Assembly: GCF_900113045.1 (NCBI RefSeq)
Contig: NZ_FONY01000039.1
Location: 1-52,340 of the forward strand
Origin: Thermoflexibacter ruber
Lineage (GTDB): Bacteria; Bacteroidota; Bacteroidia; Cytophagales; Thermoflexibacteraceae
Length of the DNA: 52,340 nucleotides
Direction: 5' to 3'
Below the pieces are notes generated by a model that did no database searches, was not told the origin of the DNA, and worked only from the letters and a program-made list of their open reading frames with translations. The first letter of the stretch is position 1. Every line of letters begins with the position of its first letter. Position numbers and translations under genes: made by a program. Positions 7,593 through 36,076 of this stretch are shown here, piece by piece.

Positions 7593-7605
7593 AACGGAAA
7601 AGCAT

Positions 7606-7635
7606 TTGTGCGTGGTTTGTTCTTTTTTCGCTAAA
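7606..7635 (+). repeat. Left inverted end of the Gabija/restriction islet
   Basis: The sequence TTGTGCGTGGTTTG, nine variable bases, then CGCTAAA. The same arrangement occurs inverted at 11960-11989 with one difference in the 14-base block. The pair encloses exactly the defence islet. The CGCTAAA part overlaps the last codons of the methylase remnant. Confidence 0.65.
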
Positions 7636-7991
7636 ACGCTACCAATATTTTTTCAACTTCTTCCTTTGCTTGTTTACGAAGTTCAAAAGAGTAACGGACT
7701 TTTTCGCTGATTTCTTGCAAAACTTTTTCTTCGGGCAAATACACCAAAATTCTGCCTAAATCGTAGTCGGAAATGTTCGGAATGGCTGCCCCTGTACGAT
7801 ACATAAAAACCTGTTTCAAAAACATTTCTGTTCGCAAATAATAAAGCAAATAGTACAATAAACAATACTTTTAGCATTTCGTCTAATGCTTGCCGTGCCG
7901 AAAGTCCGTCATTAGCATAAATGCTATTGTGGATTTCAGAAAACTTTTTGAGCAAGGAAGTTTCTTTTTGAAGGTCAAGTAAATTTTCCAT
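7631..7991 (-). pseudogene. Remnant of an N-6 adenine methylase / specificity protein (internal deletion)
   Basis: Two pieces of one type I-like modification protein lie in different frames. The first about 43 codons, from the ATG at 7989-7991, give MENLLDLQKET and a segment with IHNSIYANDGLSARQALDEM. This is the usual N-terminus of HsdM-like N-6 DNA methylases. A second piece (up to about 7858) reads FLKQVFMYRTGAAIPNISD and ends in a helical EKVRYSFELRKQAKEEVEKIL, typical of the C-terminal end of a target-recognition domain. The SAM-binding and NPPF core is missing and the join shifts frame, so it cannot be a working methylase. It starts two bases after the helicase stop and was probably co-transcribed. 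Family assignment is from remembered resemblance. Confidence 0.7.
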
Positions 7992-7993
7992 AA

Positions 7994-9574
7994 CTACACA
8001 AATTGAACATTTAAACTTTCTAATTTTTTCTTATTTGCTTCGTTGATTTGTTGTAAGCAAGCAATATACAAAGCCATTTTTGCTCTGCTAAATGCCACAA
8101 AACCTAATCTATAATGGTCTTCAAAAGCCTTTTTTTTATTTTTTTGATTATATTGAACAGCCACTCTATTAGTATGATTATTTTCTAACCATTTTTCAAG
8201 TTCGTTATTGTCTCTTGCAACTACTAAAACACACGTAGCTTCTAAACCTTTGGACTTGTGTATGGTAGTTGTGTAATCTGTGTGCTGTTGATTTTTTGGA
8301 ATTATTTTTAAATTCTGTAGTTCGCTAAAAAACTTTTCGGCATCAAAATGCTTTTCTGTGGATATTTGAAAGGCTAAATCTCGTTCAAAATAGGTCTTAA
8401 ACTCATCAAAGTTTGCAAATTCTTTTTTCCACAATTTTATGGCAAGTGTTCTGAGTTGAATTATATTGATATTGTATTTTTCGCAAATTTGTTTTGAATT
8501 AAATCCTACTATTTTGGTTATGATAAGTATTACCTCCGAAAGTAAATGATATGATTTTTTACTTTCATTTGAGATTTTAATTAAACCTGAAACGCTATCA
8601 AAAGCCTTGTTTTCAAATGCCAAATAAAACCTTTTGAAATCAGGTTCATCTCTCCAAATTTCTGTTTTATCTTTAAATGTATTTGAGATTTGCAGTAAAT
8701 CTGTTTGAGAAATAAAAAATACACCATTTTTTTCAACTGTTGAAAAACGGGCTTCTTGTTGTAATTGCGTATTGAAATTATTGATAAAAGTCGTAATTTG
8801 AGAACTACAACGGTTATTATCTCTTTTTTCTTCTACTTCATATTTTTGCTTATGCTGCAATATTGGAATTTTAGAGAAATCCTTGAAACCTGCTGAATAG
8901 TTAGATATGAACTGTTCTGCATCACCCACTTTATAGATTTTAGTCTTTTTTGATTTTCTGATTTCATCAAAAACTTTAAATTGTTGGTTATCAGTATCTT
9001 GAAACTCATCAACAAATAAAAACTGCAATCTACTACCTACTTTCTCTCTAACAATTTGATAATCGCATATCAAGTAAGACGCAATACTTGCTATTTTATC
9101 AAATGGTATTTTCCCCTGCCTAACTAATTGGTTAGTAAAGGCATACTCTAAGACTTGTTTCTGTTGAGCATTTTTCCTATTCCAATCTGGATGTCTGCCT
9201 GTGAGTATTTCTAATACTTTTTTATCATCTAACTCAAAAAATATTTTATCTGTCGCTATAAAATATTCTTTGATTGTGTTTTCCTTTTTATCTTTTTTAT
9301 CTTCAGTTACTTTTGGTAATAAACTTCCATAAGGCAAAACCAAAAATTTATTAAAAAAGGCATAAGTTGTACCCACAAAAACATTTGCAGGGATTTTGGT
9401 GTATTGGCTTAATCTTTCTCTGATAGAATTGGTAGCCGCATTGGTATAGGTAATTGCCGCTAAAAACCTATGTGGCTCTAATTCGGGCAAGTATTTTAGT
9501 ATTTCCTTTACCATATTGGTAGTTTTGCCACTACCCGCCCCCGCAATTACTAAGGTTGGTTTTTCTGTTTTCAT
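7994..9574 (-). CDS. UvrD-like superfamily 1 helicase, Gabija GajB-like
   Basis: This 526-residue protein is a UvrD/PcrA-type SF1A helicase. It shows Walker A AGAGSGKTT (residues 11-19), motif Ia ITYTNAATNSI, Walker B VDEFQDTD (near 190), motif III GDAEQ, motif V TIHKSKGLEA and motif VI FVAFSRAKMALY. All main motifs are present, so it should be active. Its ATG overlaps the stop of the upstream nuclease gene (ATGA, 9571-9574), which implies translational coupling. A short UvrD-like helicase directly after an OLD/TOPRIM nuclease is the hallmark of Gabija. In that system GajB hydrolyses nucleotides and works with GajA to cut invading phage DNA. Its use in phage defence here is inferred from pairing and context. 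Confidence 0.85.
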   Translation of the reverse strand: MKTEKPTLVIAGAGSGKTTNMVKEILKYLPELEPHRFLAAITYTNAATNSIRERLSQYTKIPANVFVGTTYAFFNKFLVLPYGSLLPKVTEDKKDKKENTIKEYFIATDKIFFELDDKKVLEILTGRHPDWNRKNAQQKQVLEYAFTNQLVRQGKIPFDKIASIASYLICDYQIVREKVGSRLQFLFVDEFQDTDNQQFKVFDEIRKSKKTKIYKVGDAEQFISNYSAGFKDFSKIPILQHKQKYEVEEKRDNNRCSSQITTFINNFNTQLQQEARFSTVEKNGVFFISQTDLLQISNTFKDKTEIWRDEPDFKRFYLAFENKAFDSVSGLIKISNESKKSYHLLSEVILIITKIVGFNSKQICEKYNINIIQLRTLAIKLWKKEFANFDEFKTYFERDLAFQISTEKHFDAEKFFSELQNLKIIPKNQQHTDYTTTIHKSKGLEATCVLVVARDNNELEKWLENNHTNRVAVQYNQKNKKKAFEDHYRLGFVAFSRAKMALYIACLQQINEANKKKLESLNVQFV

Positions 9575-11421
9575 TTGATAAGGAAGTCTAGACCGTCTTT
9601 GATGTAAGTAGGAACATTGATACTATTCAAATCTTCGTTCATCTTATCTAAAAGATTAGAGGCAAATTCAGATTTGTAGTTTTCAATTTCGTTAAAAAAT
9701 GTATTTACATCTATATCATTTGCCCCTAATGAAGCCCTAAAAGTTGCAACCTTTTTACGACTACTTAATTTTTTCTTTGTCTTTTCAAGCACGTCGAGTA
9801 AGGCACTTTTCCCTATGCCTGATTTATTACTTTCTATCAAGTCCTTTTCAAAAGTTTCTTTTGTAGTAATTTGAATATCAATTAAATTACTCATAGTTGC
9901 ATAAGCACGTTTAAGAGCAACTGCACGATTTTTAGTTTGCTTATCAGTATCACTATCTGTAAATACCACACATTTTACAAAAAAGCCATTTTTAATTACT
10001 TTTAAAAAATGCTCAAAAGCAACACCATTAACATTTACCACAATACAATTTTCTTTTTCAAGCGTTTTGCCTGTAACCTTCTCAAAAAATTTGGGCATTA
10101 GTAGTTGCTCTGCAATGCCTTCTACTAAGATGATTTTTCTTGAAAAAAACATTGTGGATTTGGTAGCATCTAAATACTTTACCAAGTAGTTAATGCTTTC
10201 TTTATCTTTTTCAGTATCCAAACCATTAAGAATGTAATGCGATTTTATATTGTTTTCTTCTTTGAACAAAACCAACGTATTGGTTAAACTTAACTTTGAG
10301 GTGATGTGCGATGAGTGAGACGTAAGAATGAGTTGAAGATGTTTTTTATCTTTTCCAATACTTTCAATATTTTCAGCCAAATGGTTTTGCAAATTTGGGT
10401 GCAAATGGGCTTCGGGTTCTTCTATGGCAATAAAACGAAATGCCGTAAAATCTCTAATTTTTTGCTCTGCCTTTATTTTCTCATCCTCAATGATTTGTGA
10501 AAGCAATAATGAAATATAGAGCAAATTATTCCTGCCCAATCCATTTCTTTCTACACTAATCGGATTTGAGCCGTAGGTAAGGCTTAACTTTTTAAGAATT
10601 TCAGAAGTTTCAGGTGAGGTAAAATCAAAATCTATTTTATTTATCGTATTAGCATCTGCCAATGAAACTTTATCAAGTAATGTATTAACATCTTCTCTTA
10701 TATCTTTCAGATTTTGGTTATCTTCTTTCAGTTCCTTTGTTAAACTACCCAAAATTTCTTTGATTTTATCGTAGTTTGAAAGTTCTTTTCTGTTCAAAAT
10801 TTTGTAAAGCAACCGACTATCGCTATTAGCAACCAATTCCTTTTTGGCATCACGTAAAGCATCTAAAAATTCCATTTTGAGCATACGCAAAAAGTACATA
10901 TCACAGCGGTTTGACGTATCATCACCACCGTAAATAGTATATTCGTAAGCATCTATTGGAAAATCAATTGTTTGCCAATCTAATTTCGTTTTCTCTCTTT
11001 GCTTTTTTATCCATTCATCTTTCTTGAAACTCACTTGTGGTGAAAATTCATAAACAACTTTTGCCTCTGTTAATTCACGATTTATACACCAATCTGCTAC
11101 TATTGCGGCTTGTTCATCTGTGAAATCCTTTAAAAATGCCTCAATCTTGACAATAGGTAGTTCTATTTCATTTAAGTTAGAAATAGATGTATTAGCAACT
11201 TTCTCTTTTAATGATTTCACAACATCATAGTTGAAATCATCAATTTCCAAGAGACGCTTCTTGAAAATGGTTATTTCTTGGCTAAAAATCAACCCAATCG
11301 CATTTAGCAAATTAGTTTTTCCTACATTATTTTCGCCAATGATAAGCGTAAAAGGTTGTAAATCAAGTTCTAAACTTGAAAAATTGCGGTAATTTTGGAT
11401 TTTGAGTTTGCTGATATACAT
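9571..11421 (-). CDS. OLD-family ATPase/TOPRIM nuclease, Gabija GajA-like
   Basis: The product has 616 residues. An ABC-type ATPase half carries Walker A IIGENNVGKTN (about 28-38), Walker B AIEEPEAHLHPN (about 331-342) and a TSHSSHI switch. A TOPRIM half has ILVEGIAEQLLMP (Glu near 432) and the acidic TDSDTDK (near 489). This is the layout of class 2 OLD nucleases and GajA. An in-frame ATG 60 bases upstream (11481) exists. I prefer 11421 because MYISKLKIQNYRNF is the standard start of the ATPase fold and the upstream extension is unlike the family. It is coupled to the helicase by a four-base overlap. Stand-alone OLD nuclease function is the alternative, but the helicase partner favours Gabija. 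Confidence 0.85.
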   Translation of the reverse strand: MYISKLKIQNYRNFSSLELDLQPFTLIIGENNVGKTNLLNAIGLIFSQEITIFKKRLLEIDDFNYDVVKSLKEKVANTSISNLNEIELPIVKIEAFLKDFTDEQAAIVADWCINRELTEAKVVYEFSPQVSFKKDEWIKKQREKTKLDWQTIDFPIDAYEYTIYGGDDTSNRCDMYFLRMLKMEFLDALRDAKKELVANSDSRLLYKILNRKELSNYDKIKEILGSLTKELKEDNQNLKDIREDVNTLLDKVSLADANTINKIDFDFTSPETSEILKKLSLTYGSNPISVERNGLGRNNLLYISLLLSQIIEDEKIKAEQKIRDFTAFRFIAIEEPEAHLHPNLQNHLAENIESIGKDKKHLQLILTSHSSHITSKLSLTNTLVLFKEENNIKSHYILNGLDTEKDKESINYLVKYLDATKSTMFFSRKIILVEGIAEQLLMPKFFEKVTGKTLEKENCIVVNVNGVAFEHFLKVIKNGFFVKCVVFTDSDTDKQTKNRAVALKRAYATMSNLIDIQITTKETFEKDLIESNKSGIGKSALLDVLEKTKKKLSSRKKVATFRASLGANDIDVNTFFNEIENYKSEFASNLLDKMNEDLNSINVPTYIKDGLDFLIK

Positions 11422-11454
11422 ACTTTTTTGCTCTAAACTTATATGTAAATATAC

Positions 11455-11468
11455 TACACATTTGTGTA
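11455..11468. promoter_or_regulatory. Palindrome upstream of the Gabija-like pair
   Basis: TACACA-TT-TGTGTA is a perfect 6-base inverted repeat lying 34 bases before the nuclease ATG. It abuts TATATTTA on the minus strand (11446-11453), a one-mismatch -7 element. It could be an operator; no dedicated repressor gene is present. Confidence 0.3.
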
Positions 11469-11483
11469 AAGTAAAAATCATTC

Positions 11484-11935
11484 TTATATTTCGTCAAAAT
11501 CTTCCCTTGTGTCTAATTGGCTTTCGTCAATTTCTCGTGGTGTGGGGTTTGTGTCTCGTATCAGTTTTTCAAGGTCGTTGTACTAAAGTGGTGTAAAAAT
11601 CGGGGTTCTGTTTTTCGTCTTTTACCAAAACATCAATCGTATAATTTTGGTACAGATGTTCAGGTGAAGTAGGCAAATGGCTAATTTTTTCGCCTTTTTT
11701 GCGAATGTAAAAGTCGCCTCTTGCCTCACTGTTTTTGGCGTTGTTGACTCCTGCGGGTTTTTCTTTGATACGCAAGACTTCGTAACCCAAGCTTTCCAAA
11801 TACTGTTTCAAAAGCAGTTCGCTAACTGCTCCCATAATGTAGCCGTTGGCACTTGGGCTACTTCGTAAGGTTTGCAAAAATACGTTTGTGGTTACGCCAA
11901 TCTTTTTTTATAAATTCTTGAATTTCGTCTTGCAT
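11484..11935 (-). pseudogene. Frameshifted remnant of a restriction-endonuclease-like gene
   Basis: From the ATG at 11933-11935 the frame gives MQDEIQEFIKKDWRNHKRIF and then stops after NLTK. Shifting one base resumes SSPSANGYIMGAVSELLLKQ, with LGYEVLRIKEKPAG, NSEARGDFYI and on to DFYTTLV (about 11595). A second shift near 11575 then reads NDLEKLIRDTNPTPREIDES and ends DFDEI with stop at 11484-11486. Two frameshifts in one coherent protein mark it as decayed, and it is probably also shortened in the middle. I recall such proteins as partners of N-6 methylases in Bacteroidota restriction systems but cannot prove the family. It and the methylase remnant flank the Gabija-like pair. Confidence 0.6.
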
Positions 11936-11959: not shown

Positions 11960-11989
11960 TTTAGCGGTTTTCTTTCAAATCACGCACAA
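11960..11989 (-). repeat. Right inverted end of the Gabija/restriction islet
   Basis: On the minus strand this reads TTGTGCGTGATTTG, nine bases, CGCTAAA. It matches the left end (7606-7635) at 13 of 14 and 7 of 7 conserved positions, with the same spacing and opposite orientation. Confidence 0.65.
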
Positions 11990-12001
11990 CGGAACAGTAG
12001 G

Positions 12002-33322: not shown

Positions 33323-34237
33323 ATGAAGCCTTTAATAAAATATAGAGGAGGAAAATCAAAAGAAATCCCTTATTTGATTAGACATATCCCACAATACAAC
33401 GGACGATATATTGAACCGTTTTTTGGTGGTGGTGCGTTGTTCTTTCACTTAGAGCCGAAAAGAGCAATCATAAATGACATTAATTCAAAACTTATCTCAT
33501 TTTACTTAGGTGTAAAAAACGACTTTGAAAGACTCAGAAAAGAATTAACTGAGATAGAGCGAGTTTACGCTATCAACCGAAAAAAATTTGAAGAACTAAA
33601 AAGTAAAACGCCTGATAAAAGAGTTGATGACGAGAACGAACCTCTGTATTATCAAATCAGAGATATGTTCAATGAACTTACTGAAAAAAAATACTCTGAT
33701 GCTTTGCTTTATTTCTTCATAAATAAGACCGCATATTCAGGAATGATACGCTACAATGCAAAAGGAGAATTTAATGTGCCTTATGGTCGATATGCGAACC
33801 TAAACACTTCATTGGTTACAAAATCTCACAGCAAATTACTTGCAAATACAGAAATATATAATCTCGACTATTCCGAGATTTTCCAAATGGCGACCAAAGA
33901 CGACTTTATGTTTTTAGACCCGCCATATGATTGTGTTTTTTCTGATTATGGCAATGCTGAACACAAAGACGGATTCAATGAAAAAAATCATATTGAGTTA
34001 GCTAACCAATATAAAAAACTAAAGTGCAAAGCACTTATGGTTATTGGTAGAACACCGCTAACAGAAAAACTATATGGCGACTACATTGTAGATGAATATG
34101 GCAAGTCCTATGCGGTAAATATTAGAAACAGATTTAAGTCCGAAGCGAGCCACATTCTCATTTCTAACTATGGCAATGAAGCATTAAAGAGAGAACCAAA
34201 ATTAATATTAGAAGAAGAATCTGTTTCCTATGGCTAG
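33323..34237 (+). CDS. D12-class (Dam-like) adenine-N6 DNA methyltransferase
   Basis: This 304-residue enzyme is an alpha-type N6-adenine methyltransferase. The start LIKYRGGKSKEIPYLIRHIP leads into the SAM motif EPFFGGGALFF. The catalytic motif IV is DPPYD (near residue 199), in the order typical of Dam/DpnM/D12 enzymes. It should protect host DNA against the partner nuclease, whose gene it overlaps by eight bases (ATG at 34230 inside the last codons). AlwI-type nucleases recognise GGATC, so a GATC-containing target is expected. That is inference from family and from the near absence of GATC in this window. Confidence 0.9.
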   Translation: MKPLIKYRGGKSKEIPYLIRHIPQYNGRYIEPFFGGGALFFHLEPKRAIINDINSKLISFYLGVKNDFERLRKELTEIERVYAINRKKFEELKSKTPDKRVDDENEPLYYQIRDMFNELTEKKYSDALLYFFINKTAYSGMIRYNAKGEFNVPYGRYANLNTSLVTKSHSKLLANTEIYNLDYSEIFQMATKDDFMFLDPPYDCVFSDYGNAEHKDGFNEKNHIELANQYKKLKCKALMVIGRTPLTEKLYGDYIVDEYGKSYAVNIRNRFKSEASHILISNYGNEALKREPKLILEEESVSYG

Positions 34238-35909
34238 AATTGACAGTAAAGTAATTTTTGTAACCACTTCACCACGGACACCTACAAAGATGATTCCTGA
34301 AATTGGGCTTTTGAACGCCCATTTCGCAGGACAAAAATGGAATACTGAAACTCAAAGAGCTTTTATGGAGCTATTGAGAGAGGAAAACTTTTTCAATGGC
34401 GAAGGTGCAAATGACCCAGCATTTAGTGCAAGAGACAGAATAAATAGAGCACCAAAAGCACTTGGTTTTGTAATTCTATCACCGACAATTCAACTTACAC
34501 CAGCAGGAGAAGAACTCGTAAATTCAAGAAGAAAAGACGAAATATTTTTAAGACAGCTTCTCAAATTTCAAGTTCCTTCACCATTCCATAAACCAACTGA
34601 AAATTCAGCAGAATTTTGGGTTAAACCATACCTTGAACTTTTCAGACTCATTAGACACTTTGGCTCATTGAAATTTGATGAGTTAATGATGTTTGGCTTG
34701 CAGTTAGTGGATTACCGAGAGTTTGACACTATTGTTGAGAAAATCAACCAATTCAGAATTGCCAAAGCACAGAATGAGGGAAACTACAAGCGTTTTAGAG
34801 CAGAATATTTCGACAGAGAGCTAAGAGAAATTTACAGTGCCGATATAAGTTCAGGAAATACACGAACCAGAGAAACAAATGATGCTTCGATTGCAAAATT
34901 TCTAAGCACCAAAGCAAGCAATATGAGAGATTACGCTGATGCTTGTGTTCGTTATTTGAGAGCAACGGGTTTGGTAAACATTTCTCATTTAGGAAAATCA
35001 ATCTCAATAGTTCCTGAAAAGATTCAGGAAGTTGATTATTTCTTGCAACACACCGACAGAGAACCTTGCTTTATTGATAACGAAGGACTATATGTTGCTT
35101 ATCTCGGCAATCGCCAAATTCCGACACTGCTAACAGACAATAGAGAACTATTAGAACAAAAAATCAGGGCAGAGTTTCCGCAACTCAATATTCGTGCGAC
35201 CGCAACATTACAAGAACTCAAAAACATATTTGCAGAGCAATTAGAAAATCGAAAAGAGCAAATAATAACGGAACAAGTTGCAGCAATCAAGGACTACCGA
35301 CTTTTTGAAGATATTTCAACAACGTTTGACCAAATACTTGATAATTCGCTTTACGACACGCCACTTATTTTGGAGTGGAACACTTGGCGAGCAATGACAA
35401 TGTTGGACGGTGGAGAAATTAAAGCCAATTTAAAATTTGATGACTTTGGAAATCCAATGTCAACAGCACAGGGCAATATGGCTGACATTATTTGCGATTA
35501 TGGTGACTTCGGTTTAACAGTAGAAGTAACAATGCAAAGCGGACAAAGACAGTATGAAACAGAGGGAGAACCAGTAACAAGACACCTTGCAAAATATAAG
35601 CGTGAAACTGAAAAACCTGCTTACTGCTTGTTCATTGCCCCAAACATAAATGACGCTTGCAAAGCCCATTTTTACGCACTACACAAAATGAACATTCAAT
35701 ATTATGGTGGATTTTCAACAATCGTTCCATTGCCTTTGAGTGTTTTCATAAAAATGGTTCAGGACTCTTATAACGCAAATTATATTCCCGAACCAAGACA
35801 CGTTCAACGATTTTTCGAGCGTTCAAATGAATTGGCTAACTCGACAGACAATGAAGTAGATTGGTATAACGGCATTATAGAAGAGGCTCTAAATTGGTTG
35901 ACAGAATGA
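34230..35909 (+). CDS. AlwI-family type II restriction endonuclease
   Basis: The 559-residue protein resembles the AlwI family of type IIS nucleases, which cut a few bases outside an asymmetric site. Family landmarks are the N-terminal FVTTSPRTPTKMIPEI, FSARDRINRAPKALGFV, LTPAGEELV and FLRQLLKFQVPSPFHKP. A C-terminal catalytic region reads GNMADIICDY, then LTVEVTM and RHLAKY, consistent with a PD-(D/E)XK-type centre. The length fits AlwI-like enzymes. It is translationally coupled to the methyltransferase. No frameshift or missing block was seen, so it should be functional. Confidence 0.85.
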   Translation: MARIDSKVIFVTTSPRTPTKMIPEIGLLNAHFAGQKWNTETQRAFMELLREENFFNGEGANDPAFSARDRINRAPKALGFVILSPTIQLTPAGEELVNSRRKDEIFLRQLLKFQVPSPFHKPTENSAEFWVKPYLELFRLIRHFGSLKFDELMMFGLQLVDYREFDTIVEKINQFRIAKAQNEGNYKRFRAEYFDRELREIYSADISSGNTRTRETNDASIAKFLSTKASNMRDYADACVRYLRATGLVNISHLGKSISIVPEKIQEVDYFLQHTDREPCFIDNEGLYVAYLGNRQIPTLLTDNRELLEQKIRAEFPQLNIRATATLQELKNIFAEQLENRKEQIITEQVAAIKDYRLFEDISTTFDQILDNSLYDTPLILEWNTWRAMTMLDGGEIKANLKFDDFGNPMSTAQGNMADIICDYGDFGLTVEVTMQSGQRQYETEGEPVTRHLAKYKRETEKPAYCLFIAPNINDACKAHFYALHKMNIQYYGGFSTIVPLPLSVFIKMVQDSYNANYIPEPRHVQRFFERSNELANSTDNEVDWYNGIIEEALNWLTE

Positions 35910-35911
35910 AG

Positions 35912-35985
35912 GGCGAACGGCTAACAGCGGTTTGGCGTAATGGCGGGTGCAGTGTTTCGCACAGCAGTTTTGTGGTGGATTAAAG
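35912..35985. other. G/C-rich cassette-like tail after the endonuclease gene
   Basis: The stretch starting GGCGAACGGCTAACAGCGG and continuing TTTGGCGTAATGGCGGGTGC, with a small GTGC/GCAC hairpin, is much richer in G and C than its surroundings. Similar sequences, as I remember, border acquired genes in other Bacteroidota. It may mark the right edge of the transferred unit. No strict attC core sites could be matched. Confidence 0.3.
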
Positions 35986-36076
35986 TATAGTTCCCCGATT
36001 GAATATTTGTGCTAAAAATCTACCACTACAATAAGCCAATAAACATTAATTATAAATATACAAATTCTTGATAATT

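Follow-up and report, generated by a model that had tools for sequence, protein, structure and literature searches.

A Gabija-bearing islet of Thermoflexibacter ruber reads as a stranded cassette of an integron-like system

A 4.3-kb islet in Thermoflexibacter ruber, lying between thrS and a fumarylacetoacetate-hydrolase-like (FAH-like) gene and outside any array, is very probably a gene cassette belonging to an integron-like system found in this lineage, and the two inverted tags at its edges would be R', where the cassette starts, and R'', where its attC site begins. The islet is part of a stretch of 52,340 nt (contig NZ_FONY01000039.1), which was analysed at its full length and is referred to here as the window. 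The cassette would extend from 11989 to 7595 on the minus strand (4395 nt), and reading leftwards from the right tag it contains a decayed R gene, an intact gajA, an intact gajB and a decayed M gene before the left tag is reached (Table 1). The stem of its attC is missing, and because of this the islet is not filed as a complete cassette; stranded cassette is the best name for it.

Table 1. Features of the window as interpreted here.
Feature	Position	Strand	Remarks
Cassette 5' end, G^TTGTGCGTGATTTG... (R' box and extension)	11960..11990	-	Putative crossover between 11990 and 11989; runs into TAAATTTG before the R gene
R'' arm, cassette 3' end, CAAACCACGCACAA	7606..7619	-	Reverse complement of the cassette start, with an A/G difference at position 11
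Remainder of the collapsed attC, ATGCTTTTCCG^TT	7593..7605	-	GGCTTGGCG...CGCCAAGCC stem missing; putative crossover between 7595 and 7594
gajA, intact (AAA ATPase, OLD-like TOPRIM)	9571..11421	-	PADLOC GajA, E 5.2e-228; Pfam AAA_15 and OLD-like_TOPRIM; start at the MYISKL methionine
gajB, intact (UvrD-like helicase)	7994..9574	-	PADLOC GajB, E 1.5e-113; Pfam UvrD-helicase
R gene remnant	11484..11935	-	Internal deletion of ~514 nt relative to G458, and frameshifts
M gene remnant (N6-methyltransferase, specificity-like C-terminus)	7631..7991	-	Internal deletion of ~1640 nt and a frame change; 668 aa in G458
Second attC-like site, hairpin present, 3' end degenerate	35918..36052	+	Model R1, 68.6 bits, E 1.3e-14
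Adenine methyltransferase before the second attC-like site	33323-34237	+	PADLOC MTase_II, E 1.5e-77
Type II restriction enzyme before the second attC-like site	34230-35909	+	PADLOC REase_II, E 2.3e-53

Each tag consists of TTGTGCGTGRTTTG, nine bases of spacer and CGCTAAA, at 7606-7635 on the plus strand and at 11960-11989 on the minus strand, with a single A/G difference within the 14-mer; when the 14-mers are read 5' to 3' from TTGTGCG, the right copy has A and the left copy G at this base. An earlier note on this DNA had described the arrangement accurately (13 of 14 and 7 of 7 bases shared, an equal nine-base spacer and opposite orientation), and the genome-wide search for the degenerate pattern that it called for recovers, at up to 3 mismatches, just two matches in the whole 5.5-Mb genome, both of them the window pair, with no scattered copies. 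Shuffles of the window are expected to give none at this threshold. Among 395 genomes of the phylum, searched at up to 2 mismatches, three others have one match each, and since the reversed control pattern gives 2 matches these look like chance. No tag was found in viral contigs.

The note also held the pair to be too ordered for chance, a judgement that stands for the 14-mers and fails for the 7-mers and their spacer. On the left, CGCTAAA overlaps with the stop codon that ends the methyltransferase remnant (GTA GCG TTT TAG), and the right CGCTAAA runs into TAAATTTG before the R gene, which we take to be promoter-like by the Bacteroidota promoter consensus. The sister cassette of genome G013 retains the 14-mers but has no 7-mers at the nine-base spacing. 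The 7-mers with their nine-base spacer are a coincidence and lie outside the site. The 13/14 inverted match by itself is only fairly unlikely and not overwhelming, being reached by 1 of 300 simulated pairs of 80-nt flanks; as judged from sequence, the pair is made secure by a family signature, namely the end-pairing and position-11 rule of the array cassettes described below.

The R side of the islet starts at the same point, GTTGTGCGTGATTTG, in the window, G458, G013, G003 and G557, the cassette 5' end being common to all of these (shorter in G557) and the sequence outside it differing in each genome. Outside the R side G458 and G013 have a palindrome of ~130 nt ending ...CCGTTGTGCG, and in both the start tag of the restriction-modification (RM) operon follows a hairpin site; on the M side of G013, CAAACCACGCACAAC leads into a palindrome, again a hairpin site. 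At the left edge of the window islet the minus strand reads CACGCACAA-ATG-CTTTTCCG^TTC, where intact sites have ...AAC-NNN-GGCTTGG...CCAAGCC-TTTTCCG^TT or similar, TTTTCCG^TT being a common 3' end among them. The window attC thus retains its R'' and CCG^TT flanks and lacks the folded stem between R'' and R', which is present in the G013 sister cassette (L074 5037-5125); because the stem is missing, the covariance model of such sites (model R1, below) gives no match to it. A search of the window with Rfam found nothing.

Further traces are seen just outside the islet. On the R side the sequence leading into the tag is ...AAGTAAC-CTA-CTGTTCCG^TTGTGCG, lying right across the stop codon of the adjacent gene, and we speculate that this edge might be a second stemless attC remnant. 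A CGGAA adjoins the right tag on its outside and another lies 6 nt outside the left tag in the same orientation, and the two read as the shared TTCCG of attC sites seen on the plus strand. Because the attC hairpin is lost, the cassette is probably now fixed in the chromosome, with stem loss as the presumptive cause. Tracing thrS and the FAH-like gene in relatives revealed no empty site, as the two genes have different neighbours in those inspected.

Sites of the same kind are abundant in this and other genomes. A palindrome-arm pattern allowing up to 2 mismatches has 52 matches in G013, 23 in the T. ruber genome, 15 in G003, 11 in G002, 5 in G458 and 4 in G557, with 0 to 2 per genome for the reversed control; the G458 count (5, control 2) is not distinctive. 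Many of these matches form opposite-orientation pairs ~90 nt apart, and there are runs of them on several contigs. The pattern CACAAACCGCYARC has 6 matches (control 2), of which four lack a hairpin by eye. An alignment of 27 sites gives, for most of them, the organization R''(..AAC)-3 nt-GGCTTGGCG-AAG-GGGG...CCCC-CCT-CGCCAAGCC-5 or 6 nt-CG^TT. Model R1 is a covariance model of these 27 sites, 10 of which are from T. ruber, so that it was trained on genomes later searched with it. With 150 of the 3001 first-look candidates scored, it has 67 matches in T. ruber at an E-value of up to 0.001; 54 of these, among those listed, are all at distinct places, and the other 13 may include opposite-strand echoes. 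Matches occur in 14 of 16 genomes, with none in G007 and G565 and two weaker ones in G015. On five T. ruber contigs (C26, C25, C88, C102 and C118) the listed matches are unidirectional within each contig, forming same-orientation attC arrays between genes, and several contigs begin or end inside a site. By these features the sites are attC-like, and the intervening DNA behaves as cassettes.

The array cassettes provide a rule with which the window tags can be compared. For 62 cassettes lying between consecutive sites, the start matches the reverse complement of the cassette's own end at an average of 7.7 of 12 positions (positions 4-15), as against 4.3 in all other pairings, and none of 20000 shuffles came up to the observed sum. 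The comparison drew on 93 of the 97 sites, since those on L212, L213, L215 and L216 stand alone and form no pair. Position 11 differs in every one of the 33 cassettes (among the 62) that match at 9 or more of the 12 positions, to which this count is limited, the start having A and the end G in 30 of them; position 10 differs in 8, and any other position in at most one. The remaining 29 cassettes fall below 9/12, and some of these probably span a missed site; three G005 cassettes share one constant sequence after G^TT. We also note that on L157 (G003) and L218 (G005) the sequence following G^TT is constant across the cassettes of one array, unlike other arrays, and that the constant sequence in G003 is a second short palindrome. 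The window cassette starts at G^TT, and its ends (GTTGTGCGTGATTTG and xTTGTGCGTGGTTTG) are complementary at 11 of 12 positions with the A/G difference at position 11, as is the G013 pair. Because the window pair obeys the end rule of the arrays, including the A/G difference, the tags are read as two cassette ends.

Hairpins modelled in the circular form of the cassette fold better on one strand. In the modelled sites of 32 well-paired cassettes the bottom strand folds to -32.3 kcal/mol on average and the top strand to -30.2 kcal/mol, the bottom strand being lower in 28 of the 32, and with the wrong partner both strands give about -22.6. These values are valid for well-paired cassettes only, since 47 cassettes were built and the 32 with at least 12/16 were folded, and those of L160, L161, L164, L211 and L218 (10 cassettes, all with 6 or fewer of the 12 end positions matching) and five weak single sites were left out. 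The A/G rule produces an A-C mismatch on the top strand and a G-T wobble on the bottom strand, and the difference is possibly a strand mark. In classical sites strand choice is set by an extrahelical base, and pairing beyond the 7-nt boxes to 9-11 consecutive complementary nt is usual in most cassettes, according to passages of PMC2727003.

A candidate integrase is encoded in T. ruber itself (L096), where a tyrosine recombinase gene (7719-9353, 544 aa, with an N-terminal extension) is directly followed by ssb (9396-9758); this contig ends ...GTTGCGTTTATCCAGATG^TTAGC, 5 nt past the G of an attI-like site. G001, G002 and G004 have the integrase gene and ssb followed by GTTGCGTTTAT..AGATG^TT and then the first cassette, G013 has both genes with a similar attI-like site and then the first cassette, and G458 and G454 have the integrase gene and a similar attI-like site with no ssb detected. 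By sequence and position, the order of integrase, attI-like site ending in G^TT and first cassette is complete in G001, G002, G004, G013 and G458, and can be followed as far as the contig end in T. ruber and G454. In G003 the integrase gene and ssb are followed ~1 kb on by an attC-like site, and no attI-like site was seen behind them. The end rule is obeyed by the first cassettes of G002, G004, G013 and G458, and approximately by that of G001; the first-cassette attC of G458 is a weak match (E 0.0018). From its position we infer that this integrase acts on the attC-like sites.

The integrase core is Xer-like, with the catalytic residues seen in the T. ruber protein, the N-terminal extension of which has a weak match to HARP below the cut-off. 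With the integron-integrase model (cut-off 265) four integrases reach 193-223 bits; with NF040815, 'site-specific tyrosine recombinase/integron integrase', they reach 210-232 bits, two of the four exceeding its cut-off of 220. No integrase passes the TIGR02249 cut-off in any of 12 genomes or 14 control genomes. The IntI-specific extra stretch is absent, the G013 integrase having 2 residues in place of 205-247 in IntI4, for which a structure is known (2a3v). In its workings the system resembles an integron, but it is not filed as a canonical one, because this defining stretch was tested for and is absent. Absence of the insertion does not alone prove a new class, as it is not fully conserved in an integron-like subgroup, according to part of PMC8138268.

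We envisage that in the excised circle the cassette start would follow its own attC, such that R'' and R' flank the hairpin, pair over ~15 nt and so complete the folded attC. Joining of the circle to its target at G^TT would next be carried out by a tyrosine recombinase, presumably with the folded bottom strand as its substrate. In the window, the integron-like machine of the lineage would have captured the cassette, and loss of the stem would then have fixed it. This scheme draws on what can be read in the DNA, that is the cassette-end rule, the arrays, the attI-like sites behind the integrase gene and the missing stem of the window attC. The suggestion that the tags are recombinase sites was right in kind, in that they look like the two arms of one integron-type attC parted by a linear cassette.

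The tags could alternatively be the terminal inverted repeats of a non-autonomous transposon carrying the restriction-modification operon, as the earlier note's transposon-like ends would have it, and movement of RM systems is described in literature abstracts. We regard this as very unlikely. There are indeed 13/14 inverted repeats at both edges and same-orientation CGGAA sequences near both that are arguable as a target repeat, but on the left the CGGAA is set apart from the tag, it can be read as the TTCCG found ahead of G^TT in attC sites, and no transposase is visible among the islet ORFs. The sister copies adjoin attC-like hairpins, and array cassettes pair in the same manner with ends that vary between cassettes yet pair within each, every cassette having its own sequence, a pattern not expected from the repeats of a single transposon.

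Yet less likely is that the tags are alike by chance, or that they stem from duplication of the promoter region of the RM operon. The right tag does run into promoter-like sequence, and the simulated flanks occasionally yield as good a match, but G013 has this pair too, with an identical A/G difference, and the end rule holds across arrays. It is extremely improbable that the islet is an invertible segment, flipped by a recombinase acting on the tags. Although these are inverted relative to each other, they differ by a systematic rule, all recognisable islet genes read one way from the right tag, and the islet is without a visible recombinase; the crossover-like G^TT at the cassette start and that after attC are in the same orientation, and in classical integrons no crossover takes place at the R'' arm itself, both of which speak against the inversion substrate that had been proposed.

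Read as a cassette, the islet probably has Gabija as its remaining useful cargo, because the surrounding R-M operon has decayed. As in other Gabija anti-phage systems, a GajA with ATPase and OLD-like TOPRIM domains is encoded beside a UvrD-like GajB, and both genes are intact, overlapping (by 4 nt) and have the expected domains; here, however, they are lodged between decayed R and M genes. The R protein is 325 aa long in intact relatives and has no Pfam or PADLOC match, and at the R deletion relative to G458 the aligned pieces overlap by 6 nt. Matches to the R remnant are present in 10 of 291 same-order genomes including T. ruber (E up to 1e-8), and to the intact R protein in 5 of 395 phylum genomes, again including T. 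ruber (E up to 1e-20), the other four at 34-51%. No relative of the R protein was found in viral contigs; there is one on a Thermus plasmid (34%), and a 102-aa piece of R has no relative among plasmids.

Comparison with other copies of the operon shows variable contents. Among the matches listed from same-order genomes, R and M pieces are 77-91% identical at the DNA level in L068, L069, L070, L071 and L075. The middle slot between R and M contains nothing in L069, a DUF4209 protein in L068 (9625-11553), a Ppl-like ATPase in L074 (350-3040) and Gabija in the window (7994-11481); that of L070 (2679-4475) encodes a protein which, judged by eye, is similar to the DUF4209 protein of L068. The slot appears to be a nested hotspot for another gene or gene pair, apparently defensive. 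The tags are absent from the related RM operons L069, L070, L071 and L075, and the M-side tag is absent from that of G458, so the operon does not take the form of a cassette in every case. The two nearest relatives of GajA that were found (a Kapaibacterium record, 85%; Flavobacterium tistrianum, 76%) likewise have no tag at up to 3 mismatches, and Gabija thus travels by other routes too. The Kapaibacterium gene (L047 8001-11359), with its 85% identical product, a GajB-like gene behind it and no tags, points to long-distance transfer.

With integron cassettes and attC sites, as in sedentary integrons and CALIN, the system shares one-way arrays, palindromic attC sites with AAC/GTT boxes, a G^TT boundary, a cassette start complementary to its own R'', an attI-like site behind the integrase and lone sites elsewhere in the genome. 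It differs in that the IntI-specific stretch is missing from its integrase, which stays below the integron-integrase cut-off, in having ssb between integrase and attI in most cases, and in attC arms that pair over ~15 nt with a fixed position-11 difference rather than over the 9-11 nt given in a passage of PMC2727003; the window's own site has in addition lost its stem. The recombinase core and catalytic residues (of the T. ruber protein) are shared with XerA/XerD-type recombinases and their 'integron-like' subgroup, from which the N-terminal extension and the position before an attI-like site and cassettes distinguish it. We tentatively raise, as a serious possibility, that this is a distinct second kind of integron, with a Xer-like integrase lacking the IntI-specific helix and bearing an N-terminal extension, usually a partner SSB, attC hairpins with ~15-nt arms, and strand choice possibly by wobble and not by extrahelical bases; it may have an independent origin or be a surviving ancestral form of single-strand cassette recombination.

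Integrons as such are not new to the phylum, since they have been reported in Bacteroidota (in a passage of PMC8618304) and Salinibacter ruber M1 is named as an example (in one of PMC9024848); what may be new is the type of integrase, together with the end rule. Listings of open-licence PMC papers contained no description of the integrase-ssb-attI arrangement or of the position-11 rule.

For the window itself, a pair of odd repeats becomes a readable history, in which a defence unit was captured as a cassette, degraded around a useful core and, it appears, became fixed. Part of PMC9024848 describes tools that depend on the extra domain for calling IntI; such tools would not call the integrase of this large cassette system IntI, and its arrays may be overlooked or be annotated as attC clusters that have no integrase. 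Escudero et al. (PMC4792948) discuss, in a portion of their text, how selection could have favoured the I2 domain before attC sites existed, and a naturally occurring system in which attC-like sites go together with an integrase that has no I2-type stretch would make the question of I2 origin directly testable.

Among other cassette-like units, we note a second lone one in the window at 33323-36052 on the plus strand, in which the hairpin of the second attC-like site is directly behind the methyltransferase and restriction enzyme genes; no clear G^TT start was seen in the 170 nt before it. Cassettes of an array on another T. ruber contig (C36, L141 129-6494) appear by eye to encode DUF262/HNH-type, ADP-ribosylglycohydrolase-like and methyltransferase-like proteins.
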